From: Catalinimonas alkaloidigena
GTDB lineage: Bacteria; Bacteroidota; Bacteroidia; Cytophagales; Flexibacteraceae
Assembly: GCF_900100765.1 (NCBI RefSeq)
Contig: NZ_FNFO01000004.1
Coordinates: 248,001-312,000 of the forward strand
Length of the DNA: 64,000 bases
Reading direction: 5' to 3'
In this document: piece after piece, positions 43,308-62,126 of the stretch
Layout of the letters: each line of letters starts with the position of its first letter
How positions within the stretch are numbered: position 1 is the stretch's first letter
Position numbers and translations under genes: made by a program
The notes under the pieces: generated by a model
Seen by the model: the letters and a program-made list of their open reading frames with translations, nothing else
Database searches by the model: none
Told to the model about the DNA's origin: nothing

Positions 43308-43323
43308 ATACGCTTTTGTTAAG

Positions 43324-45040: not shown

Positions 45041-45100
45041 AGCACTCTCCCGATGAATTGAGTCGCAGCCGCCACTTGACGAGGCTGCGCATTGCCGATG

Positions 45101-45108
45101 TAAAGATA
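45101..45108 (-). promoter_or_regulatory. near-consensus -7 box (PTPS-family gene)
   Basis: TATCTTTA on the minus strand, one base off TAnnTTTG, lies about 60 bases upstream of the start at 45040. Confidence 0.35.
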
Positions 45109-45234
45109 ACAAGAATGTATGGGTCGGACTTCAGGCAGAACGACCGACATTCGCACGGGGTGCTCTACGCCGCAATGTGGGCCCAGACCGAATACTTTTC
45201 CGGCGCGCGATGGCCCCACCTCGCCGCTCCCTTC

Positions 45235-45242
45235 TATCTTTG
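45235..45242 (+). promoter_or_regulatory. -7 promoter box TATCTTTG (hldD)
   Basis: This exact TAnnTTTG match ends 15 bases before the ATG at 45258 and decides that start over a longer frame from 45177. Confidence 0.65.
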
Positions 45243-45257
45243 TCCACAAAAAAGCAT

Positions 45258-46223
45258 ATGATTGTTGTGACCGGAGCGGCCGGCTTTATTGGCAGTTGCC
45301 TGATTTCTCGCCTGAATGCCGCTAATTTCAGGGACATCGTGGCGGTTGATGATTTTAGCCACCCCGACAAAGCACCTAATCTGGAAGGGAAGGCTATTAA
45401 AGAGCGCGTACACCGCGATGCCTTTCACGAGTGGCTGGCGAAGCATCACGAAGCGACCGAATTCATTTTCCACATCGGTGCCCGGACCGATACGACCGAG
45501 TTCGACCGCGCCATTTTCGACCGGCTGAACGTGGCCTACTCGCAGGAGCTCTGGCAGGCCTGCTGCCGCTACCAGATTCCGCTGGTCTACGCGTCGTCGG
45601 CCGCGACCTACGGACTTGGCGAACTGGGGTACCGCGACGACGAGTCGCTGATTCCGCAGCTTTCGCCGCTAAATCCCTACGGCGACTCTAAAAATGAATT
45701 CGACATCTGGGCGCTGAATCAGCCCGAAAAGCCCTTTTTCTGGGCAGGGCTCAAGTTCTTCAACGTCTACGGCCCGAACGAGTACCACAAAGGGCGGATG
45801 GCCTCCGTCATTTTCCATGCCTTCCGGCAGATCAAGGCCACCGGTAAAATGAAGTTGTTCCGCTCGCACCACCCCGATTACCGCGACGGCGAACAGATGC
45901 GCGACTTCATTTACGTGAAAGATGTGGTAGACGTCTGTTACTTTCTGATGCACCACCGAAAAAACTCCGGTATCTATAACCTGGGAACCGGACAGGCCCG
46001 CACGTTCCTTGATCTGACTCGCGCTACCTTCCACGCCATGAACGTGCAGGAACAAATCGAGTTTGTCGACACGCCCGCCGACATTCGCGACAAGTACCAG
46101 TACTTCACCGAAGCCACAATGGACAAGCTACGAAGCATCGGCTACGACCGCCCTTTCCACTCGCTGGAAGCCGGCGTCACCGATTACGTTCAACAGTACT
46201 TGCAACCCGGCGCGTATTATTAA
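45258..46223 (+). CDS. hldD: ADP-L-glycero-D-manno-heptose 6-epimerase
   Basis: The 321-residue SDR-fold epimerase makes the heptose donor for lipopolysaccharide core. HldD signs are MIVVTGAAGFIGSCLISRLN, VAVDDFS, FHIGARTDTTE, YASSAATYGLG, the catalytic YGDSKNEFD, FFNVYGPNEYHKGRMASV-type motif, RDFIYVKDVV and GIYNLGTGQARTFLDL. The NADP-binding loop starts at residue 7. Length is normal. It stands alone with its own promoter and ends at a bidirectional terminator. Confidence 0.94.
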   Translation: MIVVTGAAGFIGSCLISRLNAANFRDIVAVDDFSHPDKAPNLEGKAIKERVHRDAFHEWLAKHHEATEFIFHIGARTDTTEFDRAIFDRLNVAYSQELWQACCRYQIPLVYASSAATYGLGELGYRDDESLIPQLSPLNPYGDSKNEFDIWALNQPEKPFFWAGLKFFNVYGPNEYHKGRMASVIFHAFRQIKATGKMKLFRSHHPDYRDGEQMRDFIYVKDVVDVCYFLMHHRKNSGIYNLGTGQARTFLDLTRATFHAMNVQEQIEFVDTPADIRDKYQYFTEATMDKLRSIGYDRPFHSLEAGVTDYVQQYLQPGAYY

Positions 46224-46250
46224 ACCCTTATTTAAGAAAGGGTGTAAACA

Positions 46251-46285
46251 CAAAAAAGGGACGGAGTTACTCCGTCCCTTTTTTG
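46251..46285. terminator. bidirectional terminator (hldD/susD)
   Basis: A perfect 16-base stem, CAAAAAAGGGACGGAG with CTCCGTCCCTTTTTTG, with a 3-base loop lies between the convergent hldD and SusD genes; both strands end in T-tracts. Confidence 0.9.
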
Positions 46286-46301
46286 TATAGACTGTTGTAG
46301 T

Positions 46302-47699
46302 TTAATAACCCGTGTTTTGTACAATGCTTGGATTCGCATTTACTTCCGCTTGTGGGATAGGAAATGCTAAGCGCTCATCTCCGTACGGAATCGTTGCATC
46401 GAATGTTTGACGATTGTCCACTTTAGGAATCGGCCTTTCGTAACGCATCAGATCAAAGAAGCGGAACCCTTCCATCGCTAACTCTTTCCGGCGCTCCAGG
46501 AGTATATTATCTACCGTAACTTCTGTATAAACGGTAGCGCCACGATTTTCGGGAATCATGTTCAGGTAAGTCAATGCTTCAGAAGTGCTGCCTTGCTGGA
46601 ACAAAGCTTCGGCATAGTTGAGAATTACTTCTGCATACCGAATCACTTTGACGTTATCGTTATACGTAGCAGGTGTTATGTACTTACCCACCATACGATA
46701 ACGAGTCACTTTTTGCGTGGTATCTTCGTAAATCCCTAGTAAGTCAAGACGCACATCCGATGTATCATATACATCGTACAGGTTTTTTGTAATCTCAATG
46801 TCACCATAATTGGTTTCCTGATAGATGTTGTAAAGCCCATTTATGCTAGGGTTATCGGATGGAGTATATGCCAACTCGAAAATGATGTTGTCACCACCTG
46901 ATAACCCCCAACTTCCTGAGAATGAAGAAGCGGATTCCAGACTATACACTCCTGAATCGATTACACGTTTGGCTGCTGCTGCGGCTTCTGGCCAATTTTT
47001 GACATACAGATAATAGCGTGATAGCAAAGCGTCTACGGCCGTCGACGAAATCTCGACAGGACTACCGGCATCCAAAGTAGGGTCCATCATAGTTTTAGCC
47101 ATTTGCAAATCGCTACCAACTTGTGCCCATACTTCTTCCACCGTATTACGAGCTGGGGCAAGGTCACCGCTATTGAACTCTGTGACGATAGGTACACCAA
47201 GATTGCCTCCTGTCCATTGCTGGCCGTAAAGACGCAGCAAATCCATGTAAGCCAAACCACGGACTGCATACGCTTGTCCTTTCGCATATTTGACTTCGGC
47301 ACTTTCGTTCTCTTCTACCTCAGCATTGACTACGATATTGGTGTTAGCAATGACACGGTATAACTGCTGCCATGTATCGCGAGGGTATGCATCGGTAGTG
47401 TTTAAGAAAAACTGTCCCGGACCTACAAAACGACCAGAGTTACCGTTCGCCAAAGCGTTATCTGAACGGACCTCAGCAAAGACGATGTAGTCTCTTCCAT
47501 AATAAGTAGGTTCGTTCATACGATCATAGGCACCTAACACAAGACCCTGCAAATCTTCCAACGTATTTACGCTGGAAGATACATCTTTCGACGTACTGAC
47601 GGTTGGCTCCAAGAAATCGGCCGAGCACGACCAGAAACTTGTAGCAAACGCAGCAATAATGACTTTGGATATATATTGTTTTTTCATAATAAGCGACAT
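46302..47699 (-). CDS. SusD/RagB-family nutrient-binding lipoprotein
   Basis: This surface lipoprotein of 465 residues (461 from the second ATG at 47687, which gives the cleaner signal peptide) has lipobox SFWSC and SusD features: the tetratricopeptide-like AKGQAYAVRGLAYMDLLRLYGQQW, VDALLSRYYLYVKNWPEAA, AEVILNYAEALFQQGSTSEAL, and the C-terminal ILLERRKELAMEGFRFFDLMRYE. It pairs with the SusC gene nine bases upstream. It is visibly more AT-rich than the hldD side (sampled 60-base lines 38-53% GC). Confidence 0.94.
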   Translation of the reverse strand: MSLIMKKQYISKVIIAAFATSFWSCSADFLEPTVSTSKDVSSSVNTLEDLQGLVLGAYDRMNEPTYYGRDYIVFAEVRSDNALANGNSGRFVGPGQFFLNTTDAYPRDTWQQLYRVIANTNIVVNAEVEENESAEVKYAKGQAYAVRGLAYMDLLRLYGQQWTGGNLGVPIVTEFNSGDLAPARNTVEEVWAQVGSDLQMAKTMMDPTLDAGSPVEISSTAVDALLSRYYLYVKNWPEAAAAAKRVIDSGVYSLESASSFSGSWGLSGGDNIIFELAYTPSDNPSINGLYNIYQETNYGDIEITKNLYDVYDTSDVRLDLLGIYEDTTQKVTRYRMVGKYITPATYNDNVKVIRYAEVILNYAEALFQQGSTSEALTYLNMIPENRGATVYTEVTVDNILLERRKELAMEGFRFFDLMRYERPIPKVDNRQTFDATIPYGDERLAFPIPQAEVNANPSIVQNTGY

Positions 47700-47708
47700 T
47701 TCGGAGAT

Positions 47709-50700
47709 TTAGAAGCTAACCGTTAAACCAAGAGAATACGTCTTAATCGGAGCGGCCGTCAGGTTAAGAGTCCCCCGTGCTGACCCAGTTAGCCCTTCAG
47801 AAGTGCTAACTTCGGGGTCAAACTCCAAGTTTTTGTCAGCTACCCAAGTCCAAATGTTGTTTCCTTTTAAGTAGATATTGGCTGCACTAAATCCAACTTT
47901 TGAGAGAAGAGAGGCTGGAAGGTTGTAACCAATGGTCAGATCGCGCAGACGCAGATATTCATCACTGTAAAGACGACGCGTGGAATTACTGTTTGAACGA
48001 GTCGTGTTGCCATAAATGTTCTTAGGGTTAGGGCTTATGTCTCCTGGTTTTTGCCAGCGATCATAGAGGCGAGCATATCCGTTTGCGATCGTATAAGTAT
48101 ACTGCCCGTCTGATAGTGTATAGCCTGCCCATGTATCATACACGGAATTGCCCGTAGAATAATACAGTTGAGCGCTTACATAAACACCTTTGTACTCCAG
48201 GCGGTTGGTCAAACCTCCGTAGAAGGTAGGGAAGAAACTTCCGTGGAATGAAGACGAAGCCGCTGAGTAATTTGAGGTCGTCTCGCCGCTTGTTCCTTCA
48301 ACATACCACAAAGGAGCGCCTGTCTCCGTATCTACTCCTGCCCAAGTTGGCATGTACCACCCGTATACAGGTTGCCCTACCGAAACTTTCTGAATGCTGG
48401 TAGTAATTCCGATCTCATCCCCCTCAGCACTGAGAGGGAGTTCCGTCACTTCGTTCTTAAGGGTAGTCATGTTCGCGGACAGATTCCAACGAAAGGACCC
48501 TGCACGGATTACATCACCATCTATCGACGCTTCTAAACCTTTGTTCACCATAGTACCTACGTTCTGGGTCTGGCTGCTAAAACCAGTAGTGTAAGACAGC
48601 GGTACCTCTAGTAAAAGGTCAGATGAAGTGCGGTGGAAGTATTCTACAGTTGCATTAATGCGGTTGAAGAGACCAAAGTCTAACCCAATATTAAAGGCGT
48701 CACTTTTCTCCCAGCTTAGGTCCTGGTTTCCTAACTGGCTTGGAAAAACCGCCGCAGCTCCATTATACGCACCACTATAACTTAAGAAAGCCTGGTACTC
48801 GTTAAGTCCGACGCCAGCATTACCTGTACGGCCATAAGAAGCCCGTAGCTTAGAATTGTTGAGCCACGTCAGGTTTTGCATGAAAGCCTCTTTTGTAAAT
48901 ACCCAAGAAGCACCTACTGAGTAAAACGTCCCCCAGCGTAGCCCGGGCGCAAAGCGAGAGTTTCCTTCGCGACGAATGGTTCCGTCTAGAAATATTTTTT
49001 CGCGGAACGAGTAATTGGCCAAGCCCATAATGGAATTGATAGCCCAATCGTTCGGGTATGCTGATACGTAATCAGGTGTTCCTATTGATTCTGGGTAGTA
49101 AAGTCCATCTGCAGCGAAGCCAATCCCACCAGCTCCGATGGTATAATAATTGTTCTTTTGGGCTTCGAAGATGGCTTGTAAGTTAAAACTGTGGTCTTGG
49201 TTAAGACGCCAGCTATAATCCAGCATATTCTTCCAATCCCAGTTGAAGTTGCGATTCATATAAGCGGTAGAACCACCATTTTCACCCGCTCCGTCTCCAT
49301 AGTTGCGGTTGTCATAATACAGCTCATCAGTCAATAAGTAATCAAGCCCTAAGACGGAGGTAAACTTGAGATTTTTTAGGATGTTATATTCAAACGTAGT
49401 GGAGTTGAATACACGCGCCTGCTTACGCCGATTGATGTCATTCTGCGCAAGGTATAGGGGGTTGAAGACGATACCAAGCAGATCTAAGTTAGGAGTTCCG
49501 TCCGGTGCATACGGCTTGTCACGAGCTTGCAAGAACAACGTGGCGAGCTCCGGGTTTCCGAAATAAGCCGCGGCTTCCAACTGACCATTCTGTGTTACAT
49601 ACGAAGCATTGAAAGTCGTTTGCAACATCATCTTTTCAGTGATGGCATTACCATAACTCACTTTTCCGGTAATGCGCTCATAATCTGTCCCTACATTGAT
49701 TCCATCTTGTTGGAAATAGCTTCCCGAAACGTAATAGTTGCTTTTTTCACCACCACCTCGTACAGAAAGGTTGTAATCGTGCGTCATGGCATCGTGATTG
49801 GTAATCACATCGCGCCAATCTGTGTTGGTTACGCCATCCCAAGCGTTTGGATATTTTGTTCGGGCCTCTTCGATTGTGCTTACTTCGCTAGCAGGATTGT
49901 TTACACGCGCTTCGTAATATAACTCTTCCCATTGTTCTCCACTCAAGCCCTGCGGCCCAGGTACGGCACGTGAGATCATGCCCGATTGCCCTGAGAAGGT
50001 CACCACAGGTTTTCCGGATTTCCCTTTTTTCGTGGTGATTACAATTACGCCGTTTGCGCCGCGAGCCCCATAGAGTGCAGTAGCCGAGGCGTCTTTCAAC
50101 ACTGTAATACTTTCAATATCATTATTATTAATAGAAGAAAGTATGCTGAGGCTACCTGTTGCAGTAGAGCGGTTGTTATCACCATTCACAACCGGGATCC
50201 CATCAATCACAAACAGAGGGTCATTGTTAGCAGTAATAGAGCTGATACCACGAATGCGAATGTTTTGGCTCGATCCAGGCGTACCCGAAGAGGAAGCCAT
50301 TTGTAGACCTGCCACATTCCCTTGCAAAGCCTGATCGACCGTGGCAAAGGGTTTGTTTTGAATACGATCGGCACCTAGCGTCGACACTGCCCCGGTGAAC
50401 TCATTCTTGCTTCGCTCACCATAGCCCGTAATAACTACTTCAGAAAGAGCTTGAACATCTTCCTTTAAGCTTACGTCTACTACCGAACGGCTACCAATAG
50501 CAACCTCCTGGCTTTGAAATCCTACAAAACTGAAAACCAGTGTTTCAGCATTGTTAGGTACTGTCAACGTATACGCACCATTCACATCGGTGATGGTACC
50601 TACCGTCGATCCTTTCACGCTCACGTTCACTCCTGGTAACTCCCCTTCGTCAGAAGCGGAACGAACCACACCAGAAAGGGTACGGGTTTGTGCCCACACC

Positions 50701-50753
50701 TCCTGCGTCACAAAAGCGCACAGAAGTGTAGCAATGAGTAAGAAATGTTTCAT
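47709..50753 (-). CDS. SusC/RagA TonB-dependent outer-membrane transporter
   Basis: The 1014-residue protein has a signal peptide (about 1-21, ending VWAQ), a carboxypeptidase-regulatory-like domain (about 22-100), plug motifs (EVVITGYGERSKNEFTGAVS, NVAGLQMASSSGTPGSSQNI, LFVIDGIPVVNG, VLKDASATALYGARGANGVI) and a barrel ending LGLTVSF. No STN domain and no sigma/FecR genes nearby, so control is by another route. The ATG at 50753 starts the signal peptide; the upstream frame does not. A -33/-7 promoter lies about 42-73 bases upstream. Substrate unknown. Confidence 0.95.
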   Translation of the reverse strand: MKHFLLIATLLCAFVTQEVWAQTRTLSGVVRSASDEGELPGVNVSVKGSTVGTITDVNGAYTLTVPNNAETLVFSFVGFQSQEVAIGSRSVVDVSLKEDVQALSEVVITGYGERSKNEFTGAVSTLGADRIQNKPFATVDQALQGNVAGLQMASSSGTPGSSQNIRIRGISSITANNDPLFVIDGIPVVNGDNNRSTATGSLSILSSINNNDIESITVLKDASATALYGARGANGVIVITTKKGKSGKPVVTFSGQSGMISRAVPGPQGLSGEQWEELYYEARVNNPASEVSTIEEARTKYPNAWDGVTNTDWRDVITNHDAMTHDYNLSVRGGGEKSNYYVSGSYFQQDGINVGTDYERITGKVSYGNAITEKMMLQTTFNASYVTQNGQLEAAAYFGNPELATLFLQARDKPYAPDGTPNLDLLGIVFNPLYLAQNDINRRKQARVFNSTTFEYNILKNLKFTSVLGLDYLLTDELYYDNRNYGDGAGENGGSTAYMNRNFNWDWKNMLDYSWRLNQDHSFNLQAIFEAQKNNYYTIGAGGIGFAADGLYYPESIGTPDYVSAYPNDWAINSIMGLANYSFREKIFLDGTIRREGNSRFAPGLRWGTFYSVGASWVFTKEAFMQNLTWLNNSKLRASYGRTGNAGVGLNEYQAFLSYSGAYNGAAAVFPSQLGNQDLSWEKSDAFNIGLDFGLFNRINATVEYFHRTSSDLLLEVPLSYTTGFSSQTQNVGTMVNKGLEASIDGDVIRAGSFRWNLSANMTTLKNEVTELPLSAEGDEIGITTSIQKVSVGQPVYGWYMPTWAGVDTETGAPLWYVEGTSGETTSNYSAASSSFHGSFFPTFYGGLTNRLEYKGVYVSAQLYYSTGNSVYDTWAGYTLSDGQYTYTIANGYARLYDRWQKPGDISPNPKNIYGNTTRSNSNSTRRLYSDEYLRLRDLTIGYNLPASLLSKVGFSAANIYLKGNNIWTWVADKNLEFDPEVSTSEGLTGSARGTLNLTAAPIKTYSLGLTVSF

Positions 50754-51340
50754 AAAAGATTGACTTGAATTAAAGAAAGCATACGAACTATTATCAAACT
50801 TATACCTCAATTGGCAGTTGAACAATATAAGATTCTAAACAAAAGACAAAAAATTACAAAATTTTCATTGACTCATATTTAATTGTTACTTTAAAATGCG
50901 TCATTTTCCAAAGCAATATCCCCCAAAAAAGGTTAACACAAATCAATTCTTCTTTGTTTTTCCAGAACAACAATCTTTTATTTTTTTAACTAATTAGTAG
51001 CTTCAGCTGCCAGTTTGTCAAACCCACGTCTCTAACCCTACTCGACACCAGACTTGATGTGGATTATTATGTAACGCAGACCAGACCATAGCAGGAAAGC
51101 CACGTTGCTAAAAACTACCGCACAATATGCATTACCTATGTTTTTTTAAGTGAATTGTCCGCAACATAAGTCGATGTCCTTCATACCTCTATGGCTTCTC
51201 CCTACTTTCAAGCTATCACGATGCTTCGGTCTCGAGCAAATCATAAATCGTATTTATCAGTAACGTGATCATATACCCCGCAGATTTTCACACCTCTATA
51301 GTGTTATATTGTACTTTAGCTGGCCATAACCCTCCCATAA
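50754..51340. other. AT-rich divergent intergenic region, 587 bases
   Basis: This separates the divergent SusC and TonB-receptor genes. It holds the SusC promoter at 50795-50826. No credible gene, tRNA or strong hairpin is seen in the rest; near-matches to TAnnTTTG (e.g. TATGTTTT near 51137) are weak. Confidence 0.55.
50795..50826 (-). promoter_or_regulatory. SusC promoter: ATTG-N20-TAAGTTTG
   Basis: On the minus strand an exact -7 box (50795-50802) is preceded, 20 bases upstream, by ATTG (50823-50826). The layout is identical to the gap promoter and gives a leader of about 35 bases. Confidence 0.65.
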
Positions 51341-53695
51341 ATGATAAAATATGTTCTAACGCTACTTCTTACTTTACTTTTTTTGCCCCATTCTTCTCTG
51401 CTTGCCCAGTCCACTTACCGCATCTCCGGACGCGTACTTGATGAACGAAACGAGCCGTTACCCAGTGCTTTTTTGGTCATACAACCCGGGCAAATGACCG
51501 TAATTTCTAATGAAGAAGGCTTCTACGCACTCATGCTTCCAGAAGGTCAGTACGCCATCTCCTGCCAATACGTAGGTATGGAGCCGTTTGTGAAATCGTT
51601 TACCATCCGGGGGCATGACTTTACGTTGAATATTCGCCTTCAGGACAGCCGTACCAGTCTGGATCAGGTCGAGGTGACGGCCACACCCTTGACGGACGTA
51701 AATACTGTGCAAATGGGGGCAACAACTCTAGCAGCCAAGGTGCTGCAAAAAATCCCTACGTTTCTGGGAGAGGTTGACGTAATCCGATCCATTACTACCC
51801 TACCTGGTGTCGTGACAGCTGGTGAAGGGGCGGCCGGTTTTCAGGTGCGGGGGGGCGGCGCAGATCAAAATCTGATTTTGCTCGATGACGCGCCAGTATT
51901 TAACTCAGCGCACTTGTTTGGCTTTTTCTCTATCTATAACCCAGACTACCTCAAAAGTTTCACGTTGCACCGGAGCGGCGTATCGGCGCGCTATGGCAGC
52001 CGTATTTCTTCTGTGCTCGACGTTTCTATGGCAGACGGGCACGAAGATAAACTGCATGTGTCGACCGGACTCTCACCGATGACATTCAAGCTAGGGCTTG
52101 ACGGCCCCCTAACTAAACGAAGTTCGTTTGTGCTGGCAGGCCGCGGAGCCTCTGCCAATCATATTCTGAAACTCTTTCCGAGTCAGAACCTGAAAAACAG
52201 TGCAGGTTACTTTTATGATTTCAACGTCAAATACCACTACCAAATCGATGCCCGTAATGAAATCAGCCTTTCGGCCTATTATAGCAAAGATGGCTTCAAA
52301 TTTCCGTACGATACGCTTTACCATTGGTCTAATGCCTTGGGGAGCCTGAAGTGGCACCACATCTTAAATGACAATTACAGTGGCGCACTCACGTTGGTAA
52401 AAAGCCATTATCAGAACCAGGTAGAAGGTATTCGTACCGGCGAAGAATTTGTGCTCCAGTCGGGTGTCGACTTCACCCAGGTCAAATACGACGGAAATTA
52501 CTTTGGCATTCCACAGCATACGCTGGAGTTTGGAGCCGGAGGCGCTCGCTACCAGGTCGAGCCAGGAGATTTCCAAACATACGGCACGTCGAGCCGTACG
52601 CCCATTACGCTCGATCAGGACTTGGGCTATGAAACTTATTATTATCTGAACGACGAGGTTAGCATCAGCAAAGCGCTCTCGGTAAGCATGGGTCTGCGCC
52701 ATTCATTCTTCGCCAAATACGGCCCCGGGGAGGTGTATACGTACGAAGAGGGTGTGCCGCGCAGCGAAAATACGATTGTGGATACGGTTCTGTATTCCTC
52801 TCGCGAAAAAATTAAGGCGTATCAGGGCCTGGAACCTCGCGCGGCGGTTAAGCTTTCGCTTAATGCAGAAAGCTCAGTGAAACTGGGGTACAGCCGGATG
52901 CGCCAGTATATTCAATTGATCTCTAACACGGCCTCGATTACGCCGGTTGATATATGGAAGCTCTCGAACCGCTACCTCGCGCCACAGATTGCCGACCAAT
53001 GGGCATTAGGATACTTTTTCGTGCGCGACGACCAAGCTTATGAATTCAGTTGGGAAGTTTACTACAAAAATCTGCTCAACCAACTCGACTATAAGAACGG
53101 TGCTACCTTGTCGTTAAATCCGGCACTGGAAGCCGCTCTCCTAACGGGAACAGGTTTTGCCTACGGGTCCGAATGGCTGATCAAGAAGAACCACGGCCGT
53201 CTGACAGGATGGCTCAGCCTGAACTACGCACGTTCGTTTCGTGTGGTCGCCGGCCCTACCCCCGAGGAATCCATCAACAACGGAGAGGTCTACCCTTCCA
53301 ATTACGACCGCCCCCTGAACATTAACCTCTTTTCCAGTTACCGTTTGTACGACCCGCGCTGGTCCTTTTCCTTTAACTTCACCTACACCACCGGTCGCCC
53401 CAATACGATCGCCGACTCGTGGTTTCGTTACTACGATACCATCCTGGCCAACTACCGCGGTCGCAATCAGGAGCGCATGCCCGACTACCACCGACTGGAC
53501 ATTGCATTCAATTATACCTCGCATCCTCATAAGAAAGTACAGTCGCGTTGGAGCTTCTCGGTTTATAATCTCTACTTCCGCAAAAACGCGTACTCGTTGC
53601 TCTATGCCCATTTTTACGGTTCGCCGGTAGGCACTTACAAACTCTCAGTGCTTGGATCAGCCATCCCCTCTCTTTCGTACCAGCTAACTTTCTGA
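51341..53695 (+). CDS. TonB-dependent receptor with carboxypeptidase-regulatory-like domain
   Basis: The 784-residue outer-membrane receptor has a signal peptide (about 1-22), a CarboxypepD_reg-like domain (about 25-105, ISGRVLDERNEPLPSAFLVI), a plug (GVVTAGEGAAGFQVRGGGADQNLILLDDAPV, VSARYGSRISSVLDV) and a barrel ending SYQLTF. Smaller than SusC and with the plug type usually found next to DUF4249 lipoproteins, one of which follows after four bases. The pair is probably an uptake complex; the ligand (siderophore, peptide or glycan) is not predictable. Confidence 0.92.
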   Translation: MIKYVLTLLLTLLFLPHSSLLAQSTYRISGRVLDERNEPLPSAFLVIQPGQMTVISNEEGFYALMLPEGQYAISCQYVGMEPFVKSFTIRGHDFTLNIRLQDSRTSLDQVEVTATPLTDVNTVQMGATTLAAKVLQKIPTFLGEVDVIRSITTLPGVVTAGEGAAGFQVRGGGADQNLILLDDAPVFNSAHLFGFFSIYNPDYLKSFTLHRSGVSARYGSRISSVLDVSMADGHEDKLHVSTGLSPMTFKLGLDGPLTKRSSFVLAGRGASANHILKLFPSQNLKNSAGYFYDFNVKYHYQIDARNEISLSAYYSKDGFKFPYDTLYHWSNALGSLKWHHILNDNYSGALTLVKSHYQNQVEGIRTGEEFVLQSGVDFTQVKYDGNYFGIPQHTLEFGAGGARYQVEPGDFQTYGTSSRTPITLDQDLGYETYYYLNDEVSISKALSVSMGLRHSFFAKYGPGEVYTYEEGVPRSENTIVDTVLYSSREKIKAYQGLEPRAAVKLSLNAESSVKLGYSRMRQYIQLISNTASITPVDIWKLSNRYLAPQIADQWALGYFFVRDDQAYEFSWEVYYKNLLNQLDYKNGATLSLNPALEAALLTGTGFAYGSEWLIKKNHGRLTGWLSLNYARSFRVVAGPTPEESINNGEVYPSNYDRPLNINLFSSYRLYDPRWSFSFNFTYTTGRPNTIADSWFRYYDTILANYRGRNQERMPDYHRLDIAFNYTSHPHKKVQSRWSFSVYNLYFRKNAYSLLYAHFYGSPVGTYKLSVLGSAIPSLSYQLTF

Positions 53696-53699
53696 ATGT

Positions 53700-54746
53700 A
53701 TGTTAAAGAAATACTGCCTTACTGCGATCCTCCTGCTCGCGAGTTGCATCAGTCCGGTTTCCATCGAATTTACCGGCCAGCTCGAACACCTAGTCGTAGA
53801 AGCCGAATTCAGTAATTTACCCAACAGACATTATGTACGCCTAACACGCTCCCAGCCCTTTAACACTGGCTACAATGTATTTGTAGATGGTGCTCGTGTA
53901 TTCATCACGAGTGTAGAAGGCGAGTACTACGAATTTCAGCAACCGACCCAAAAGAGTGCCGGGTACTATTACGCTGCCGAGGGCATAACGGCCATTCCGG
54001 GGCATACGTATACCCTGCACGTTACTACCAAAACGCAAACGTATCAGTCTGCCCCGGTCACGGTTTCACAGACTGTTCTGCTGGATTCGATTCGCTACGA
54101 ATACGCTGAAAAACCTTTTGTCATGGAAGGCACTTCCGAGCAGGTCGTGATGCCGGGCTATATGTTCAGTGTCGATTATCAGGACCCGGCCGAAGGAAAA
54201 AACTACTACAAGTGGTCGTACAAGCTGCTGTTTGAAGTCGACACCCAGCCCGAACTTTACGAGGACACTGAAGGCGGGCCGCAATGCCCCTGCCGAGCAC
54301 CTAAGCCATGTTGTAGCCAGTGCTGGTGGCCAGAACAGGGCTACCTCCCAAAGGTGCTCAGCGACCGGCTTACCAATGGGCAGTTCGTGATTAACGAGCA
54401 GGTATTTTTTCTACCATTCGAAAAATACATGGGAGTAAAATTGCGCCTGACGTTACAACAGCATAACATCAGTGAAGCTGCTTATGAATTTTTCCGTGCC
54501 CTTGAAGAGCAAAAGCAGTCTACCGGATCGGTAGTAGACCCTCCCCCCTCCGAGATAAAAGGAAATATATACAATGTGGCTAATCCCGATGAACAGGTCA
54601 TAGGCTTTTTTGTAGCTTCAGCAGCAGCTGAAGCCACGACTTACATTGTGCGCAACGACATTCCTTACGAAGTGGAAGCGTTTCAGTATTGGGACGATTG
54701 CCGCGAAAAAGAGAATTCTATCCATTACGCACCTGCCGGTTGGTAA
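53700..54746 (+). CDS. DUF4249-family lipoprotein with cysteine-rich insert
   Basis: The 348-residue lipoprotein (lipobox LLLASC, Cys16) has the DUF4249 pattern: LVVEAEFSNLPNRHYVRLTRSQPFN, a repeated beta-sandwich start with YYAAEGITAIPGHTYTLHV, DSIRYEY, and a C-terminal FFVASAAAEATTYIVR. Around residues 197-211 it carries five cysteines in a short loop (CPCRAPKPCCSQCWW); family members usually show fewer here. It lies four bases after the TonB receptor stop and should be its surface partner. A later DDCREKE cysteine near the C-terminus is typical for the family. Confidence 0.88.
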   Translation: MLKKYCLTAILLLASCISPVSIEFTGQLEHLVVEAEFSNLPNRHYVRLTRSQPFNTGYNVFVDGARVFITSVEGEYYEFQQPTQKSAGYYYAAEGITAIPGHTYTLHVTTKTQTYQSAPVTVSQTVLLDSIRYEYAEKPFVMEGTSEQVVMPGYMFSVDYQDPAEGKNYYKWSYKLLFEVDTQPELYEDTEGGPQCPCRAPKPCCSQCWWPEQGYLPKVLSDRLTNGQFVINEQVFFLPFEKYMGVKLRLTLQQHNISEAAYEFFRALEEQKQSTGSVVDPPPSEIKGNIYNVANPDEQVIGFFVASAAAEATTYIVRNDIPYEVEAFQYWDDCREKENSIHYAPAGW

Positions 54747-55288
54747 ATTTCTTAATCAGAGAAAACGCGCGATGATGAGAGCGTGTATCGATCGGCGATT
54801 GCTTTTAAACAATAAACACTCCATTTAGCACCTTTTGCACAGAGGTTCGTTGGTTGGAGGCTGAACTGATCCGCAACGTGCCAAGAAAGATGCTTAGTAG
54901 TGCAGCAATTTTTAAGCTTATTGATGAAATTCATCTGTCAATCCCGCCATTCCTTTCATTTTTCTTACATAATAGCGCAGTAAACGTGAACTCATTTCAG
55001 ATAGAATTTTCTTAATAAAATCTCATCAGCAAGGTTCAATTATAAATTTACTAAGAAGGCAACCTTTGTCTTTTACAGTTAACAGATTGCTAAGAAACCT
55101 TCCTCTTAGAGAAATATATATACTATTTAAGCTTCCTTTTTTGAAAATCCCCTCTTTTACCCCCCCTTTGCTCAGCCAAATCTTACAAAAAATTTTGTGA
55201 AACGCTTTCTATTTTAAAATCAGGGGGATATGTTTGAGGTTGTACACAATTGTATTTATCCTCATTTATCACTTCAAACAAAAAATGC
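54747..55288. other. AT-rich intergenic region, 542 bases
   Basis: This lies between the DUF4249 gene and the second plus-strand SusC. No gene is supported. It is strongly AT-rich and contains the SusC promoter near its 3' end (55206-55236). No terminator hairpin with a T-tract was found after the DUF4249 gene. Confidence 0.5.
55206..55236 (+). promoter_or_regulatory. SusC promoter: TTTC-N19-TATGTTTG
   Basis: An exact -7 TAnnTTTG box (55229-55236) has a -33-like TTTC 19 bases upstream (55206-55209); leader about 45 bases to the ATG at 55289. Confidence 0.6.
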
Positions 55289-58200
55289 ATGAGAAAGCTA
55301 TTACTCGCTTTTCTGTCCCTTTCCCTATTTATAGGTGAAGGTTGGGCACAAAAAACGGTCTCGGGGCGGGTGACCTCTGAGGCCGATGGTGTCGCTCTCC
55401 CGGGGGTAAACGTCTTGGTTAAAGGGACAACCGCGGGTACGATTACCGATTACGACGGAAAATATCAGTTAGAAGTGCCAAGCAGTGCTACGACCCTGGT
55501 GTTTTCATTTATCGGAATGACCAGTCAGGAAGTAGAGCTCGGCAACCGTTCGGTTGTAGATGTAGTCATGTCTGAAGATGCCAAACAACTAAGCGAAGTT
55601 GTTGTGACGGCTCTGGGCATCGAACGGGAAGAAAAAGCGCTTGGTTATGCCGTACAAGAAATTGACGGTTCTGCGCTGACAACCGTAAAAGAAACCAACG
55701 TCGTCAACTCACTGGCCGGTCGCGTTGCGGGTGTGCAAATCAAAGGATCTCCGGGTAATATGGGAGGCTCTGCCAGCATCAACATCCGTGGGATTCGCTC
55801 TGTATCGGGCAATAACCAGCCGTTGTTCATCATCGACGGTACGCCGATCAGTAACGACAACTTCAACAGCGACGACACACAGGGTGCTGACGGTGGCCGC
55901 GATTACGGTAACGCCGCTCAGGACATCAACCCTGACGATATCGCCAACATCTCTGTACTGAAAGGACCCAGTGCCACCGCCCTATACGGTTCACGTGCCG
56001 CTAACGGTGTGATTCTGATCACGACGAAAAGCGGAAAAAACAAAAAAGGAATCGGTGTCAGCCTGAACTCTACCACAACGTTCGAGTCGGTTATGGCGCT
56101 GCCTGAATTCCAAAACGAGTATGGCGGGGGTTATAAGCAGGAGTTCGACACATACAACGGTCAACCTATCGTCAACTACGCAGCAGACGAAAGCTGGGGA
56201 CCCCGCATGGATGGAACACCGGTTCGCCAGTGGTACAGCTGGTTCGAGGATGATCCAGATTATGGTCAACTCACTCCTTTTGTTGCTCATCCTAACAACG
56301 TCCGTGATTTCTTCGAGACGGGTATTACCTCCAGCAACAACATTGCGATCACCGGCTCTACCGACAATACGTCAATGCGTTTGTCATACACGCGTCTGGA
56401 TCAAAAAGGTGTAATCCCGAACAGCACCATGGCCCGCAACACAGTGGCCTTCAGTGGAGAATCAAAACTGACTGATAAACTGACGGTAGGTGTAAAAGCC
56501 AACTACGTAGGAAACTCGGCGAAAGGCCGTCCGGGCACAGGTTATGGTGCCGATGCCGGTAACGTCGTTACCAGCTTCCGTCAGTGGTTCCAGCGTCAAA
56601 TTGATATTGACAAGCTGAAAAATTATGAAACGCCCGATGGTCTCGACCGTACATGGAACATCAACAGCCCTAACAACCTCGACCCCTTGTATTGGGAAAA
56701 TCCATACTGGGTTCTGAACAAGAGCTACGAAACCGATAGCCGCGAGCGCCTATTCGGGAACATCTATGCGTCGTACCAACTCCTGCCAAGTCTGAAAGTA
56801 ACAGGATGGGCACGTACCGACTTTTATACAGACCGTCGTGACGACCGTATTGCTTCCGGTTCTATTCCACAGGATATGTATCAGGAAGACGTACGTCAGG
56901 TACGTGAAGACAACTTTGAATTTTTGGCGCAGTATAATACCAACTTCGGAGATAATTTCTCTTTAGGAGTTAACCTCGGAGCCAACTCTCGCCGCAACAC
57001 ATACCAGCGGAACTACAACCGTACGGTCGGCGGCCTGAGCGTTCCGAACTATTTCAACATCGGTGCCTCAATCGACCGTCCTGAAATCACCGATTACTCT
57101 GAAGAGAAACGCGTAAACAGCCTCTATGGTAGCGCAAACCTCGGTTTTTATAACGTTGTGTTTGTTGAAGCTTCACTTCGGAACGACTGGTCTTCTAGCC
57201 TTCCTCCTGAAAATAACTCCTATCTCTACCCTTCGGCATCAGTAAGCTTCGCTTTCTCTGAGCTACTGCCGAGCTCTTCGGTCTTCTCATTCGGTAAAGT
57301 CCGTGCTGGTTGGGCGCAGGTAGGTACCGATACAGACCCCTACCGCGTTTACAACACATATACGCCGAGCGACAACTACGGCAGCTTGCCTGCCTTTGCG
57401 CAGCCCAATACCCTGAACAACCGTGATCTAAAACCAGAACAGTCGACCTCGTACGAATTGGGATTGGATACACGTTTCTTCAACGGTCGTATTGGTTTGG
57501 ATCTAACGTACTATAACAACATCAGTATCAACCAGATCATCCCGCTAGCGGTTTCAGGAACCAGTGGGTATGATGAAGCCATCATCAACGCCGGTGAGAT
57601 CCGCAACAACGGTATCGAAGTGATGCTGTCTGGTACACCCATTCAGGGCGCTTTTACCTGGGATATCGGCCTGAACTGGGCTCGCAACCGCAACGAAATA
57701 GTAGAACTCGCTGACGGTCTGGACAATATTCTTTTGTACAGCTGGGGAGTTACGCTGAATGCCCGCAAGGGTGAGCCGTATGGTGTGCTTGTAGGCGATG
57801 CCATCAAACGCGATGCACAAGGTCGTAAACTGGTAGATGGCGAAGGAAACTACGTCCGTGAAACCAACAAAGTCTATGGTTCGGTCTTGGCCGATTACAC
57901 CGGTGGTATCACCAATACCTTTACATACAAAGGCTTCCACATGAACGTCCTGATCGACTTCCAGAAGGGTGGTAAATTCTACTCGGTTTCGAACCGTTAC
58001 GGAACCTACTCGGGTCTACTGATCGAAACGGTAGGCAACAACGCACTGGGCAACCCGATGCGCGACCCTGTTTTGGTTGATGAAGATACTGGCGAACCAT
58101 TACCCAACAGTGGCGGTATTTTAGCCGATGGTGTCTTGGAAGATGGAACACCTAACACAACGTATGTTGACGCGCAGAACTACTGGAAGAACCTGCGTAA

Positions 58201-58468
58201 CTACCGTGAAGAGTTCACCTACGATGCCAGCTTTGCCAAGCTTCGTCAACTTAACTTTGGTTACACATTCCCTAAGAGCATGTACAAGAGCCTTCCCTTC
58301 CAGTCCATCTCGCTGGATTTCGTAGGTCGTCACCTGGCTATCTTGTGGAAGAAAGCACCAAACGTCGATCCTGAAACGGCGCTGGGGTCTGGTAACATCC
58401 AAGGCTTCGAGAACGGTCAGTTGCCGAGCGTTCGTTCAATGGGTTTCAACCTGAAAGTGACTCTGTAA
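55289..58468 (+). CDS. SusC/RagA TonB-dependent outer-membrane transporter
   Basis: The 1059-residue protein has a signal peptide (about 1-20, ending GWAQ), a carboxypeptidase-regulatory-like domain (about 21-100), plug motifs (EVVVTALGIEREEKALGYAV, NSLAGRVAGVQIKGSPG, NIRGIRSVSGNNQPLFIIDG, VLKGPSATALYGSRAANGVI) and a barrel ending FNLKVTL. The EVVVTALGI plug start and the SusD partner of the second type mark a different SusC subfamily from the other two in the window. No STN domain. The ATG at 55289 is used; the frame upstream to 55250 carries no signal peptide. Confidence 0.95.
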   Translation: MRKLLLAFLSLSLFIGEGWAQKTVSGRVTSEADGVALPGVNVLVKGTTAGTITDYDGKYQLEVPSSATTLVFSFIGMTSQEVELGNRSVVDVVMSEDAKQLSEVVVTALGIEREEKALGYAVQEIDGSALTTVKETNVVNSLAGRVAGVQIKGSPGNMGGSASINIRGIRSVSGNNQPLFIIDGTPISNDNFNSDDTQGADGGRDYGNAAQDINPDDIANISVLKGPSATALYGSRAANGVILITTKSGKNKKGIGVSLNSTTTFESVMALPEFQNEYGGGYKQEFDTYNGQPIVNYAADESWGPRMDGTPVRQWYSWFEDDPDYGQLTPFVAHPNNVRDFFETGITSSNNIAITGSTDNTSMRLSYTRLDQKGVIPNSTMARNTVAFSGESKLTDKLTVGVKANYVGNSAKGRPGTGYGADAGNVVTSFRQWFQRQIDIDKLKNYETPDGLDRTWNINSPNNLDPLYWENPYWVLNKSYETDSRERLFGNIYASYQLLPSLKVTGWARTDFYTDRRDDRIASGSIPQDMYQEDVRQVREDNFEFLAQYNTNFGDNFSLGVNLGANSRRNTYQRNYNRTVGGLSVPNYFNIGASIDRPEITDYSEEKRVNSLYGSANLGFYNVVFVEASLRNDWSSSLPPENNSYLYPSASVSFAFSELLPSSSVFSFGKVRAGWAQVGTDTDPYRVYNTYTPSDNYGSLPAFAQPNTLNNRDLKPEQSTSYELGLDTRFFNGRIGLDLTYYNNISINQIIPLAVSGTSGYDEAIINAGEIRNNGIEVMLSGTPIQGAFTWDIGLNWARNRNEIVELADGLDNILLYSWGVTLNARKGEPYGVLVGDAIKRDAQGRKLVDGEGNYVRETNKVYGSVLADYTGGITNTFTYKGFHMNVLIDFQKGGKFYSVSNRYGTYSGLLIETVGNNALGNPMRDPVLVDEDTGEPLPNSGGILADGVLEDGTPNTTYVDAQNYWKNLRNYREEFTYDASFAKLRQLNFGYTFPKSMYKSLPFQSISLDFVGRHLAILWKKAPNVDPETALGSGNIQGFENGQLPSVRSMGFNLKVTL

Positions 58469-58496
58469 CTCAACTCTTATCCTAAGTAAAGACTTT

Positions 58497-60017
58497 ATGA
58501 AATTTACAACATACGCATCACGTGGACTCCTGGCGGCCGCACTGGTTTCGCTGGGTGCCTGTGACCAAGGTTTTGAGGAGCTTAACATCGACCCGAACAA
58601 GCCCTCAGAAGTCCCTACCTCCTATCTGTTTACTCAGGGAGAGCGCGCATTGGTCACACAAGTATTCGATCCGCTTACGGTAGCTGAATATGCCATTCAC
58701 TACCCTCAGTACTTCTCGCAAACGCAGTATGCGGACATTACGCGGTACTCGACGGTAGAATCGAGCTTCTATCCGTTCTACACGGGTGGATTAGCAGATA
58801 TGCAGGAGATCATTCGCCTGAATACCACAGAAGAAACCATGGACGCCGCCGCTGCCTCAGGCGCGAACGTAAACCAGGTTGCCGTGGCACGTATCCTGAA
58901 AGTGTGGGGCTTTCATAACGTGACGGATATGTGGGGAGATATTCCTTACTCACAGGCATTACTGGGTCGTGAGGCCTTTTCGCCGGTGTACGACCCACAA
59001 TCCGAAATTTATCCAGCACTCATTCAGGAATTGACCGAAGCGGCAGCGCAGATTGATGAAAATCAGCCGGGCGTGGTAGGTGATATCATCTACGGCGGTG
59101 ACATGGCCATGTGGAAACTGTTCGCCAACTCCCTGAAGCTGCGTCTGGGCATGCGGATGTCGGAAGTGGCTCCTGATATGGCAAAAACAGCAGTGACTGA
59201 AGCGTTGAGCGCCGGTGTTTTCACCAGTAACGACGACAATGCGATGTACACTTACCTGAGCGCACAGCCCAACGTTAATCCGTATTACAACCACTTCCTG
59301 ACGCGTACGGACTTTGCCGTTACCAACACGATGGTAGACATGTTGAAAGCAATGGACGACCCTCGTCTGGCGATTTACGCTGACCCGATTGGAGTTGACG
59401 TGCCCCGCGATGCCAACGAGTTCCCTGTAGCCAATCCGGAGTACGTTGGAATGATTTATGGCGAAACCGATGCAGTCTCAGGTAGTATCCGGAACCAGGA
59501 AGTTTCGTTCCCGGGTTTGGCGACACGCGCGGCCACAGCCAAAAGCCCCATTCTGGTGTATTCAGAAGTTTTGTTCAATCAAGCGGAAGCTGCAGCACGC
59601 GGCTGGACTGGTGGCGATGCCGAGGCTCTTTATGAAGCAGCCATTCGCGCTTCGATGGAACAGTGGAATACATTGGCTGCTGAAGTAGGTAGCCCCTATC
59701 AAGTCACTGCCGCTGAGATCGATGCGTATATCGCTTCTGGCGATGTTGCCTACGATGCTGCCAACTTTGAGAAGTCTATCGGCACTCAAAAGTGGCTCGC
59801 TCTGTACATGCAGGGCTTCGAAGGCTGGTCTGAGTGGCGCCGTCTGGACTATCCGGACTTAAAGCCTGCTCCGGCCGCCCCGGCCGGCATGGGTATTCCA
59901 CGTCGTCGTGGTTATACTGAAACAGAGAACAGCTTGAACAAGGCCAACTATGATGCTGCTATCGCCCGTATGGGTGGCAATGGACTAAGCACTCGTATGT
60001 GGTGGGATGTAGAATAG
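58497..60017 (+). CDS. SusD/RagB-family lipoprotein, SusD-like type 2
   Basis: The 506-residue surface lipoprotein has lipobox LGAC (Cys22) and the second SusD type: FEELNIDPNKPSEVPTSYLFTQGERAL, ARILKVWGFHNVTDMWGDIPYSQALLG, WKLFANSLKLRLGMRM, and YSEVLFNQAEAAARGW with IGTQKWLALYMQGFEGWSEWRRLDYP near the C-terminus. It lies 28 bases after its SusC. Its ligand is unknown; this class is often found without polysaccharide-degrading enzymes. Confidence 0.93.
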   Translation: MKFTTYASRGLLAAALVSLGACDQGFEELNIDPNKPSEVPTSYLFTQGERALVTQVFDPLTVAEYAIHYPQYFSQTQYADITRYSTVESSFYPFYTGGLADMQEIIRLNTTEETMDAAAASGANVNQVAVARILKVWGFHNVTDMWGDIPYSQALLGREAFSPVYDPQSEIYPALIQELTEAAAQIDENQPGVVGDIIYGGDMAMWKLFANSLKLRLGMRMSEVAPDMAKTAVTEALSAGVFTSNDDNAMYTYLSAQPNVNPYYNHFLTRTDFAVTNTMVDMLKAMDDPRLAIYADPIGVDVPRDANEFPVANPEYVGMIYGETDAVSGSIRNQEVSFPGLATRAATAKSPILVYSEVLFNQAEAAARGWTGGDAEALYEAAIRASMEQWNTLAAEVGSPYQVTAAEIDAYIASGDVAYDAANFEKSIGTQKWLALYMQGFEGWSEWRRLDYPDLKPAPAAPAGMGIPRRRGYTETENSLNKANYDAAIARMGGNGLSTRMWWDVE

Positions 60018-60040: not shown

Positions 60041-60076
60041 AAAGAAAAAGGGAGGCAATTGCCTCCCTTTTTCTTT
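60041..60076. terminator. 36-base perfect palindromic bidirectional terminator
   Basis: The sequence AAAGAAAAAGGGAGGCAA followed by its exact reverse complement lies after the plus-strand SusD; flanking A- and T-tracts allow termination of the convergent minus-strand gene too. Confidence 0.9.
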
Positions 60077-60206: not shown

Positions 60207-62126
60207 CTACAAAATGCGGAACTCAATGCGGCGGTTCTGGCGGCGGCCTTCTTCTGAGTCGTTGGGGACTTTGGGTTGCGCTTCGCCGTAGCCGTGGTAC
60301 TGGAGCCGGGCTGAGGCGATCCCCTTTTCGGTCAGGTAGGTGTACACGCTCTGGGCGCGCTGTTTGCTCAGTTGCAGGTTGGCGGCGTCGGTGCCTACAT
60401 CGTCGGTGTGGCCTTCGATTTCAACCTTGATGTCGGGATTGGTCTCCAGAAAGCCGATGAGCTTGTTGAGCTCAACACGCGACTCGTCCAGCAATTTGTA
60501 TTCGCCCGAGGCAAAAAAGATGTTGTTCAACGTGGTTTTCGATCCGGCCCGCACGGCGCTCATGGGCACGTCGAGCGTGAGGCCCTCGGTACGCTGTTTT
60601 TTCTCTTTGTAATCGAAGGCGAGGCTCTTGAACAGATACGAAGGGCTATTGACATAGAGAGCATACTCACTACCCTGCGTCAGCACAATCAGGTACTCGC
60701 CGTTCTGTGCGTCCGAGGTCACTTTCTGTACCGTCTCTCCCGAGTTTAGGTCGATCAGTTCGATGGTGGCCGTCAGGGGCTTTTTCGTTTCTTCATCGAA
60801 TACTTTCCCGGCCACAAAACCGGTTTTCTGCGACGGTTGCAGCGCCGGAGGCATCGGGAAACTGTAAATTTCGCTCAGCGGCTTCTTGGGGTCCGTATAG
60901 TCGTCCTTCGAGTAATAAGCTGTTTGGCCATCGGCCGTTACAAAGAGTGAACTTTCGTCCAGGTACGTGTTCAGCGGGTAGCCCAGGTTCTTCGGCGTGT
61001 TCCAGGTTTTGCCGGAAAGCTCGGAGAAGAACAGGTCGCGCCCGCCCATTCCCAAATGACCATCCGAAGCAAAATAGAGCGTTTTGTCGTTGTTGTGGAT
61101 AAATGGTGCCAGGTCTTCGCCGGGCGTGTTGATGGGCGCTCCCAGGTTGGTCGGCTGCTGCCACTCGCCTTTGTCGTTCTGATGCGCCATCCAGATGTCG
61201 GTTTTGCCCCGGCCGCCCGGCCGGTTGGACGCAAAGTAAAGCGTTCGCCCGTCGGCAGAAAGCGAAGGCTGCGTATCCCAGTGCGGCGAATTGATCACCG
61301 GTCCCATGTTCTGCGGGCGCTGCCACTGGTTGCCCTGTCGGTAAGTGATGTACAGATCGCAACTTCCCTCACCGATCTTGTCGGAGCACATGGTGAACAC
61401 CATCACGCGCGCGTCGGCCGAAATGGTGCAGGTGCCTTCGTTGCGGGGGGTGTTGATGTTGGGCGAGATGGAACCCGGCTGTGTCCACCCTCCGTCGGGC
61501 AGACGACGGGAAGCTAGAATGTTTTCGTCAAATTCGTTGCCGTGGCCCAGCCGGGCGGTGTACACCAGGATGTTCTGATCGGCGGTGAGCACCGGGAAGT
61601 ACTGCTGCGGGAACACATTGACGTTGCCTTTCATCGGAGTAGCCTGGATGTCGACCGGATGTTTCATGGCTTCCTCCGCAAAATCGCAGATGGCCAGTTG
61701 GTGTTGCGCCCATTCCCGGCGCTCGCGACTTCCCTTGGGGTTCTTCAGGAACTCCTGATAATAGGTTCGGGCTTCCGGGTAATTCCCGGCACGAATGGTA
61801 TGCTCTCCTAGCGTAAAGGCCAGTTCCTGCGCCCGGGGCGTGTTGGGACGCAGTTTATAAAACTGCTCGAAGTGTTCGTGCGCTTTGTCTTGCTCGCGGT
61901 AAAGCGAATAGACGTTGCCTAGCTGCAAGTGCGCTTCGGCAAACGACGGGTCGCGCCGCAGGGCATCCGACAGCTTCGCGATGGCCTCTTCGAATTGCCG
62001 CTGCTTGATCAGCAAACCTGCCTCATCGTACAACTTGACGGCTTTTTTGTCACTCGACATGCCGGGCTGAGCCCAGGCGATACTAACGCTACTGAAAAAC
62101 AGCAATATGAAGCAGAATTTCCTCAT
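60207..62126 (-). CDS. PorE-like type IX secretion protein (TPR-PD40-CRD-OmpA)
   Basis: The 639-residue outer-membrane-associated protein has a signal peptide (about 1-19), TPR-like helices (about 25-130), PD40/WD40-like repeats (about 160-420, e.g. QPSLSADGRTLYFASNRPGG, LYFASDGHLGMGGRDLF), a carboxypeptidase-regulatory-like domain (about 450-520) and an OmpA peptidoglycan-binding domain (about 535-639, VEIEGHTDDVGTDAANLQLS). This domain order matches PorE (PG1058) of Porphyromonas gingivalis, which links the secretion machine to peptidoglycan. Other OmpA/TPR proteins share parts of this layout, so the assignment is by architecture. Confidence 0.82.
   Translation of the reverse strand: MRKFCFILLFFSSVSIAWAQPGMSSDKKAVKLYDEAGLLIKQRQFEEAIAKLSDALRRDPSFAEAHLQLGNVYSLYREQDKAHEHFEQFYKLRPNTPRAQELAFTLGEHTIRAGNYPEARTYYQEFLKNPKGSRERREWAQHQLAICDFAEEAMKHPVDIQATPMKGNVNVFPQQYFPVLTADQNILVYTARLGHGNEFDENILASRRLPDGGWTQPGSISPNINTPRNEGTCTISADARVMVFTMCSDKIGEGSCDLYITYRQGNQWQRPQNMGPVINSPHWDTQPSLSADGRTLYFASNRPGGRGKTDIWMAHQNDKGEWQQPTNLGAPINTPGEDLAPFIHNNDKTLYFASDGHLGMGGRDLFFSELSGKTWNTPKNLGYPLNTYLDESSLFVTADGQTAYYSKDDYTDPKKPLSEIYSFPMPPALQPSQKTGFVAGKVFDEETKKPLTATIELIDLNSGETVQKVTSDAQNGEYLIVLTQGSEYALYVNSPSYLFKSLAFDYKEKKQRTEGLTLDVPMSAVRAGSKTTLNNIFFASGEYKLLDESRVELNKLIGFLETNPDIKVEIEGHTDDVGTDAANLQLSKQRAQSVYTYLTEKGIASARLQYHGYGEAQPKVPNDSEEGRRQNRRIEFRIL

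Follow-up and report, generated by a model that had tools for sequence, protein, structure and literature searches.

Three outer-membrane importer pairs of known kinds in a foreign-looking, mosaic, enzyme-free cassette of Catalinimonas alkaloidigena

Gene content and edges of the block

We analysed 64,000 nt of the Catalinimonas alkaloidigena genome (assembly GCF_900100765.1, contig NZ_FNFO01000004.1, positions 248,001 to 312,000 of the forward strand), here called the window, in which six genes for outer-membrane uptake proteins form a block at 46302–60017 (all coordinates are in window numbering) with a hairpin at each end. The genes make up three pairs, each of a transporter and a lipoprotein. 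Pair 1, on the minus strand, consists of SusD1 (46302–47699, 465 aa), a SusD/RagB lipoprotein lid that matches the SusD_RagB/SusD-like_3 profiles of Pfam (PF07980, PF14322), and SusC1 (47709–50825, 1038 aa), a SusC/RagA TonB-dependent barrel (TIGR04056, 777 bits; TIGR04057). Judged by eye, the true start of SusC1 is probably MKHFLL, about 24 codons inside the called open reading frame (ORF). Pair 2, on the plus strand, is formed by a TonB-dependent receptor with CarbopepD_reg and Plug domains (51341–53695, 784 aa; PF13715, PF07715) and a DUF4249 lipoprotein (53700–54746, 348 aa; PF14054, 140 bits), the probable lid of the receptor upstream of it. Pair 3, also on the plus strand, comprises the SusC/RagA barrel SusC2 (55250–58468, 1072 aa; TIGR04056, 677 bits) and the SusD-like_2 lipoprotein lid SusD2 (58497–60017, 506 aa; PF12771, 392 bits). 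Pairs 1 and 2 diverge from an AT-rich intergenic region of 515 bp (50826–51340) that presumably holds the promoters of both, and an AT-rich region of 503 bp (54747–55249) is the presumed promoter of pair 3.

In both SusCD pairs, a barrel above the SusC/RagA membership cut-off of 368 bits (TIGR04056) adjoins a SusD-family lipoprotein, as expected for this importer family, and in pair 2 the DUF4249 gene adjoins a plug-bearing receptor with which it is conserved as a pair. All three lipoproteins show, by eye, a lipobox cysteine near the N-terminus (SFWSC in SusD1). The remaining ORFs in the block that reach 100 aa all overlap the six genes, so the block contains no enzyme, regulator or inner-membrane permease. 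This is what the initial annotation had described, and its three transporter/lipoprotein pairs between two bidirectional terminators were likewise confirmed by Pfam/NCBIfam profiles, coordinates and hairpins. There is no carbohydrate-active enzyme among the six genes between the hairpins, so the block does not qualify as a polysaccharide utilisation locus. Nor does it encode a dedicated regulator of the hybrid two-component system (HTCS), extracytoplasmic function (ECF)/anti-sigma or SusR kind; the sole regulator among the scanned flank genes is of the AraC type (34641–35456), about 11 kb from the block.

The left hairpin (46250–46286) lies between an epimerase gene and SusD1 and the right one (60041–60076) between SusD2 and a PorE-like gene. 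Both have perfect arms of 18 bp with A-rich sequence on one side and T-rich sequence on the opposite side, and resemble bidirectional terminators; the surrounding stretches fold at z −6 to −9. A simple terminator scan missed both. The same hairpin design occurs at 29931 and 43284, and the edge hairpins therefore look like ordinary convergent-gene terminators of the host. No Rfam family was found in the window.

Composition, distribution and ancestry

The block is indeed more AT-rich than its flanks, as the initial annotation had noted, with a GC content of 0.480 against 0.568 for the rest of the window. GC content at third codon positions (GC3) is 0.43 and 0.46 in pair 1, 0.58 and 0.54 in pair 2 and 0.55 and 0.56 in pair 3, and it changes within one gene step at both edges, from 0.71 in the left neighbour to 0.43–0.58 in the block and to 0.73 on the right. 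We compared these values with 33 other SusC (19) and SusD (14) genes from the window and 20 regions of the same genome chosen around SusC1 matches. Their mean GC3 is 0.77 and the lowest value 0.60, and every block gene lies below all of them. That barrel genes are normally low in GC was considered and rejected, since the SusC/SusD genes sampled outside the block exceed genes of other regions in GC. Against a background of 172 genes from 20 other genome regions (GC3 0.673 ± 0.105; two of the regions flank the window, and the simple ORF picker may have included some false ORFs), the block genes fall at the 5th to 17th percentile. In the 20 regions around other SusC genes, no 13.7-kb window out of 500 reaches the AT-richness of the block. 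The AT-richness is thus real and unusual for the SusC/SusD gene class, though not extreme for the genome. Two further stretches of the same genome as AT-rich as the block lie at C2:600000 (locus L178) and C7:50000 (L188).

The distribution of the pairs was studied in 390 genomes of the order, the window's own included, ten of them from the same family and none from the same genus (G-numbers denote sampled genomes, L-numbers loci read, and f5, f10, f12 and f18 coded families). In each genome the whole-genome protein searches evaluated just the top few candidates, for instance three for SusD2. None of the ten family members matches SusD1 (E ≤ 1e-45), SusD2 (E ≤ 1e-70) or the DUF4249 protein (E ≤ 1e-15), while 60, 106 and 181 genomes of the order do so, respectively. 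As a positive control, two SusDs of normal composition from the same genome each match seven of the ten family members at 1e-45, and two and seven of them, respectively, at 1e-70.

Phylogeny of each transporter, a check that the initial annotation had proposed, gave a different nearest clade for each pair. SusC1 is sister to G033 of f5 (support 100, 60% identity), in a clade with G203 of f18, and the nearest relatives of SusD1 are found in the same two genomes (57% and 51% identity, respectively). The receptor of pair 2 belongs to a six-row clade with four f12 rows and Pontibacter chinhatensis (support 100, 56% identity). SusC2 falls into a five-row clade with G206, G363 (f10), G179 and G056 (f18) (support 99/98), in a tree of 42 rows (L201, L202, L204 and L208–L229 from an 80-locus set, 12 plus 4 further loci and the window) that leaves out the more distant L230–L279 and six duplicate loci. 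The SusD2 tree contains 22 of these rows. Relatives of SusD2 share 51–57% identity with it, and its row is loosely placed, yet outside the clade associated with copper amine oxidases (see below); a further copy in G203, at the edge of a contig (C140), is absent from the SusD2 comparison set. Path lengths to the nearest rows amount to 0.7 to 1.1 changes per column, which implies that a recent donor is missing from the sample. G033 and G203 each contain close relatives of both pair 1 and pair 3, on separate contigs; the contigs of G203 are short, so its two relatives may lie near each other. In no single genome among the 390 were close relatives of all three pairs found. G376 and G382 carry distant homologues of each pair kind (35–41% at best), at separate loci.

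The chromosomal neighbourhood was compared as well. On the left the block is preceded by Tig, ClpP, ClpX, LpxB, QueD-like PTPS and NAD-dependent epimerase genes (39695–46223), the last of which (45177–46223, plus strand) we take to be hldD. To its right, on the minus strand (60207–63813), are a TPR-PD40-OmpA gene (60207–62126), presumably PorE, a QueE-like radical SAM gene and FolD; the domains of both the epimerase and the PorE-like protein were computed by profile search. Among the epimerase loci of 15 relatives, LpxB and PTPS adjoin in five (G037, G018, G048, G052 and G053), LpxB alone stands beside the gene in G056, and neither is present in nine. All six left-backbone genes, including ClpX, ClpP and Tig, are together in G053 (L306). 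On the other side, PorE, QueE and FolD are together in three of 12 relatives' loci (G053, G018 and G048), G037 keeps PorE and QueE, and in G001 QueE lies about 5 kb from the PorE-like gene. The QueD-like (44624–45112) and QueE-like (62150–62842) genes flank the block, each in a gene group kept in some relatives.

In all ten genomes with both flank genes on one contig (G001, G014, G018, G023, G030, G037, G042, G045, G053 and G056), the best matches are at least 121 kb apart, with G023 the nearest. For this reason the proposed comparison of the hldD–PorE junction in relatives yielded no empty site. Conserved synteny, which the initial annotation had named as evidence against acquisition, was not seen either; the epimerase–PorE junction was seen only in the window's genome, and the neighbourhood has moved more than once. 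Two loci complicate this simple picture. In the family member G002 (L291, G002:C5), one strand carries both PorE and, some 8 kb away, a ClpX gene that has no ClpP match next to it. In G042 the epimerase gene directly adjoins a distant paralogue of PorE (29%). A mobile element (integrative and conjugative element, transposon or integron) was considered and ruled out within the scanned parts, on the absence of integrase, transposase, tRNA and edge repeat.

Taken together, composition relative to paralogues, absence from the family in the presence of positive controls and the trees support a foreign origin of the block. We hold with moderate confidence that it is a lineage-specific cassette of three lidded importers gathered by horizontal transfer, in which the pairs arrived separately and pairs 1 and 3 serve the uptake of organic nitrogen. 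Of the acquisition as one block suggested by the initial annotation, the probable foreign origin stands, along with content and composition; arrival as a single block is probably wrong, given the three nearest clades and the more AT-rich pair 1. At the least, pair 1 seems to have come apart from pairs 2 and 3. Such a history suggests that a single chromosomal junction can receive outer-membrane importers one pair at a time, which is relevant to the way in which large Bacteroidota genomes broaden their diet and yet acquire no enzymes.

Several observations weigh against this history. One other SusCD pair of the genome is nearly as low in GC3 (0.60–0.63), so the margin is narrow, and two of the 20 other regions contain 13.7-kb windows as AT-rich as the block, which make up 3.2% of the 500 windows taken from all 20. 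Loci of the nearest relatives have 34–48% GC, and the family members' own loci 41–54% (G001 54, G002 41–42 and G004 49%), so low GC alone names no donor. No integrase or transposase was found among 26 proteins scanned (six of them the block's own; window 1–29900 lay outside the scan), no direct repeat of at least 18 bp at the two block edges and no tRNA in the window. Moreover, type-1 and type-2 SusCD pairs (26–48% identity) adjoin within about 6 kb in L135, L143, L213 and L246 and, to judge by their coordinates, also in G301 and G346. Such neighbourhoods thus form repeatedly, and separate arrivals would be indistinguishable from one transfer out of a mosaic donor that is missing from the sample. 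Possible but less probable is a history in which an AT-rich Cytophagales donor, itself unsampled, passed on a ready-made cassette of six genes in one transfer. It would fit the low GC of all six genes relative to paralogues, their clean edges, and the arrays of DUF4249 and SusC-SusD_2 pairs in f12/Pontibacter genomes. However, GC3 is 0.43–0.46 in pair 1 and 0.54–0.58 in pairs 2 and 3, the nearest clades differ among all three pairs, and no searched genome showed close relatives of all three, the homologues in G376 and G382 being distant. Quite unlikely, in our view, is vertical inheritance with loss in smaller relatives, the AT-richness then stemming from weak codon selection or low expression. 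The ten family genomes measure 2.7–4.2 Mb against 7.1 Mb here, which makes loss plausible, and the percentiles of the block genes show that low-GC3 genes are not rare in this genome. On the other hand, GC3 is higher in every one of the 33 SusC/SusD genes sampled outside the block, the two control paralogues have homologues in seven of ten of the same small relatives, and the epimerase–PorE junction was not found in relatives.

Neighbours of related pairs and putative ligands

As the block itself is free of enzymes, the genes next to related pairs were read. The SusC2 group that contains the window comprises 16 rows (support 83/87). In eight of these, a copper amine oxidase gene directly follows SusD2; the products have an N-terminal signal by eye, and one gene is truncated where its contig stops, so that only the N2 domain is visible. 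The arrangement was noted at loci L201, L202, L204, L205, L206, L207, L260 and L127, and twice in Dyadobacter diqingensis (L204). The copper amine oxidase rows form one clade of the SusD2 tree (99/96) that spans several Cytophagales families. L207 (PBYL01000375.1), titled as a Thalassovita sp. metagenome-assembled genome, carries a Bacteroidota SusCD-amine oxidase locus and is probably mislabelled or chimeric. Three more rows, all from Cyclobacterium (L208–L210), have amidases after SusD2. In L208 there are four, followed by an acetamidase/formamidase and an asparaginase-like gene; the calls in L209 and L210 rest on likeness to the L208 amidases and on gene sizes. The remaining five rows, the window included, have neither enzyme directly after SusD2.

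Across the order, copper amine oxidase was found in eight of the 390 genomes. Ten genomes, counting the window's own, have a close SusD2, and five of the eight are among them. The hypergeometric p for this overlap is 2e-7, with kinship ignored and the cut set after the matches were seen. In three of the eight genomes (G187, G342 and G362) the enzyme is encoded away from such a pair. As controls we used 68 SusC-SusD_2 loci, 47 of which have a same-strand gene within 300 bp downstream (these fall among L212–L279). The downstream genes include 14 metallophosphatases, five alkaline phosphatases, three aminotransferases, an LD-carboxypeptidase and one GH20. No amine oxidase or amidase was present among the 25 of 41 families listed, and of the 68 control loci none matched the Cyclobacterium amidases or was labelled copper amine oxidase. 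The link of the sister SusCD clade to copper amine oxidase is the least expected point of the analysis and, as a clue drawn from gene neighbourhoods, the most interesting lead. A literature search gave no on-topic paper joining copper amine oxidase with SusD, or SusD-like proteins with amidase and nitrogen, and none joining amine oxidase with SusC, TonB-dependent or Cytophagales was evident among the matches listed.

The relatives of pair 1 also have neighbours that may act on amides or peptides. In G033 an M28 peptidase gene comes after the pair, together with one for an AAT-family protein (PF03417, 44 bits) that also matches the NAAA amidase beta model, though below threshold. Amidases occur near three more of the 11 pair-1 loci (L143, L148 and L150), giving an amidase or peptidase in four of 11; in L150 the amidase comes directly after SusD, and an S9 peptidase is present as well. 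The two best solved chains for SusC1 are 8aa4 and RagA (5e-97), and the nearest one for SusC2 is BT_2264 (5fq6, E 6e-148), from the BT_2263-BT_2264 complex that was observed with peptide (PMC7782687). Both SusCD pairs thus resemble the RagAB and BT2263-BT2264 peptide importers in having a barrel with a lipoprotein lid. They differ from them in that SusD2 matches BT_2263 weakly (4e-21) and the window locus lacks a peptidase, and a peptide ligand here is putative.

We propose that each pair would act as a 'pedal bin', in which the surface lipoprotein (SusD, DUF4249 or SusD-like_2) catches the ligand and closes over the barrel, after which TonB would pull the plug and the ligand would enter the periplasm. 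Our best guess for the ligands of pairs 1 and 3 is organic nitrogen in the form of compounds that resemble amines, amides or peptides, which enzymes from other loci of the genome would then break down. The initial annotation took the three transporter types as a hint of complementary ligands. Such complementarity is putative, and the relatives of two of the pairs point to a single theme, organic nitrogen.

Not all of the evidence fits this assignment. The own genome has no copper amine oxidase, and SusD2 is followed by the PorE-like gene on the other strand. SusC2 lies in its five-row clade without amine oxidase, sister to the amine-oxidase clade, so the copper amine oxidase link is one step removed; direct membership of the window pair in that clade, suspected from the neighbours, was ruled out by the SusC2 and SusD2 trees. 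The Flexithrix row of the five-row clade has a nucleoside transporter gene downstream, which has no obvious fit to nitrogen. As the rows are related, the neighbour counts are not independent. For pair 1, the amidases of L143 and L148 are near the pair and not adjoining, and the control loci above are all of the pair-3 type. Some of its neighbours fit badly (a sulfate permease in L144, a mandelate-racemase-like enzyme in L151) or have no family (L147 and the first gene of L143), and L142 (G203:C20) has ExbB/ExbD beside three tandem pairs of the SusC1-SusD1 type. Finally, SusD2 matches solved glycan-binding SusDs, e.g. mixed-linkage glucan and chitin binders, better than BT_2263.

The last point would agree with a different function, the import of glycans by all three pairs, with the block as the degenerate remnant of a polysaccharide utilisation locus whose enzymes and regulator have been lost. 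Loci of that sort typically contain SusC/SusD pairs, which are commonly interpreted as glycan transporters, and Pfam describes the matched models PF14322 and PF12771 as starch-binding. We nevertheless judge this function unlikely. No carbohydrate-active enzyme was found among the scanned neighbours of the close SusCD relatives, the solved chain nearest to SusC2 belongs to a complex in which peptide was observed, and phosphatases are the largest group after other SusD_2 genes (19 of 47, against one GH20), so that the 'starch-binding' label of PF12771 can mislead. The neighbours of relatives suggest phosphorus as the nutrient of many SusD_2 pairs and nitrogen as that of the window's branch, which would change the naming of orphan SusCD pairs. 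A comparable case is the Pus (phosphate utilisation) SusCD systems of Flavobacterium, for which PMC8115612 proposes a non-carbon nutrient with releasing enzymes alongside; here, by contrast, the relatives have nitrogen-releasing neighbours (amine oxidase, amidases) and the window locus is enzyme-free. Tentatively, Bacteroidota may possess a nitrogen-scavenging SusCD branch parallel to Pus, in which one SusC-SusD_2 clade takes up amine or amide compounds for deamination by an exported copper amine oxidase or by several amidases. The window would then hold an enzyme-less member of this branch next to pair 1, some relatives of which likewise have amidases and peptidases nearby, and the cassette would be a purely transport-level upgrade for organic nitrogen.

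The receptor–DUF4249 pair

The order of receptor and DUF4249 gene is kept in all 15 relatives' loci read, which were taken from DUF4249 matches. A conserved operon of this kind, BT2172 with the DUF4249 protein BT2173, has been described, and joint action of the two has been proposed (PMC11003636); we liken pair 2 to it by description, not by sequence. The literature search turned up DUF4249 in a single paper. No solved relative of the DUF4249 protein was found (best E 0.15), and an AlphaFold2 model from two sequences only had a predicted local distance difference test (pLDDT) score of 39.8.

In f12/Pontibacter genomes a DUF4249 pair directly follows SusC-SusD_2 pairs at four loci (L110, L111, L112 and L224) and is close to one in L114; in L109 it is not near such a pair. 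Transporter-only arrays are therefore not unique to the window. As in the window, the arrays (G376, L224) have no enzyme between the pairs; unlike it, they contain other SusC-SusD_2 subclades in reversed order and no pair-1 type. An alignment of 15 DUF4249 proteins has four invariant cysteines beyond the lipobox (in CC..C and DDC), which would be compatible with disulfides or a metal site.

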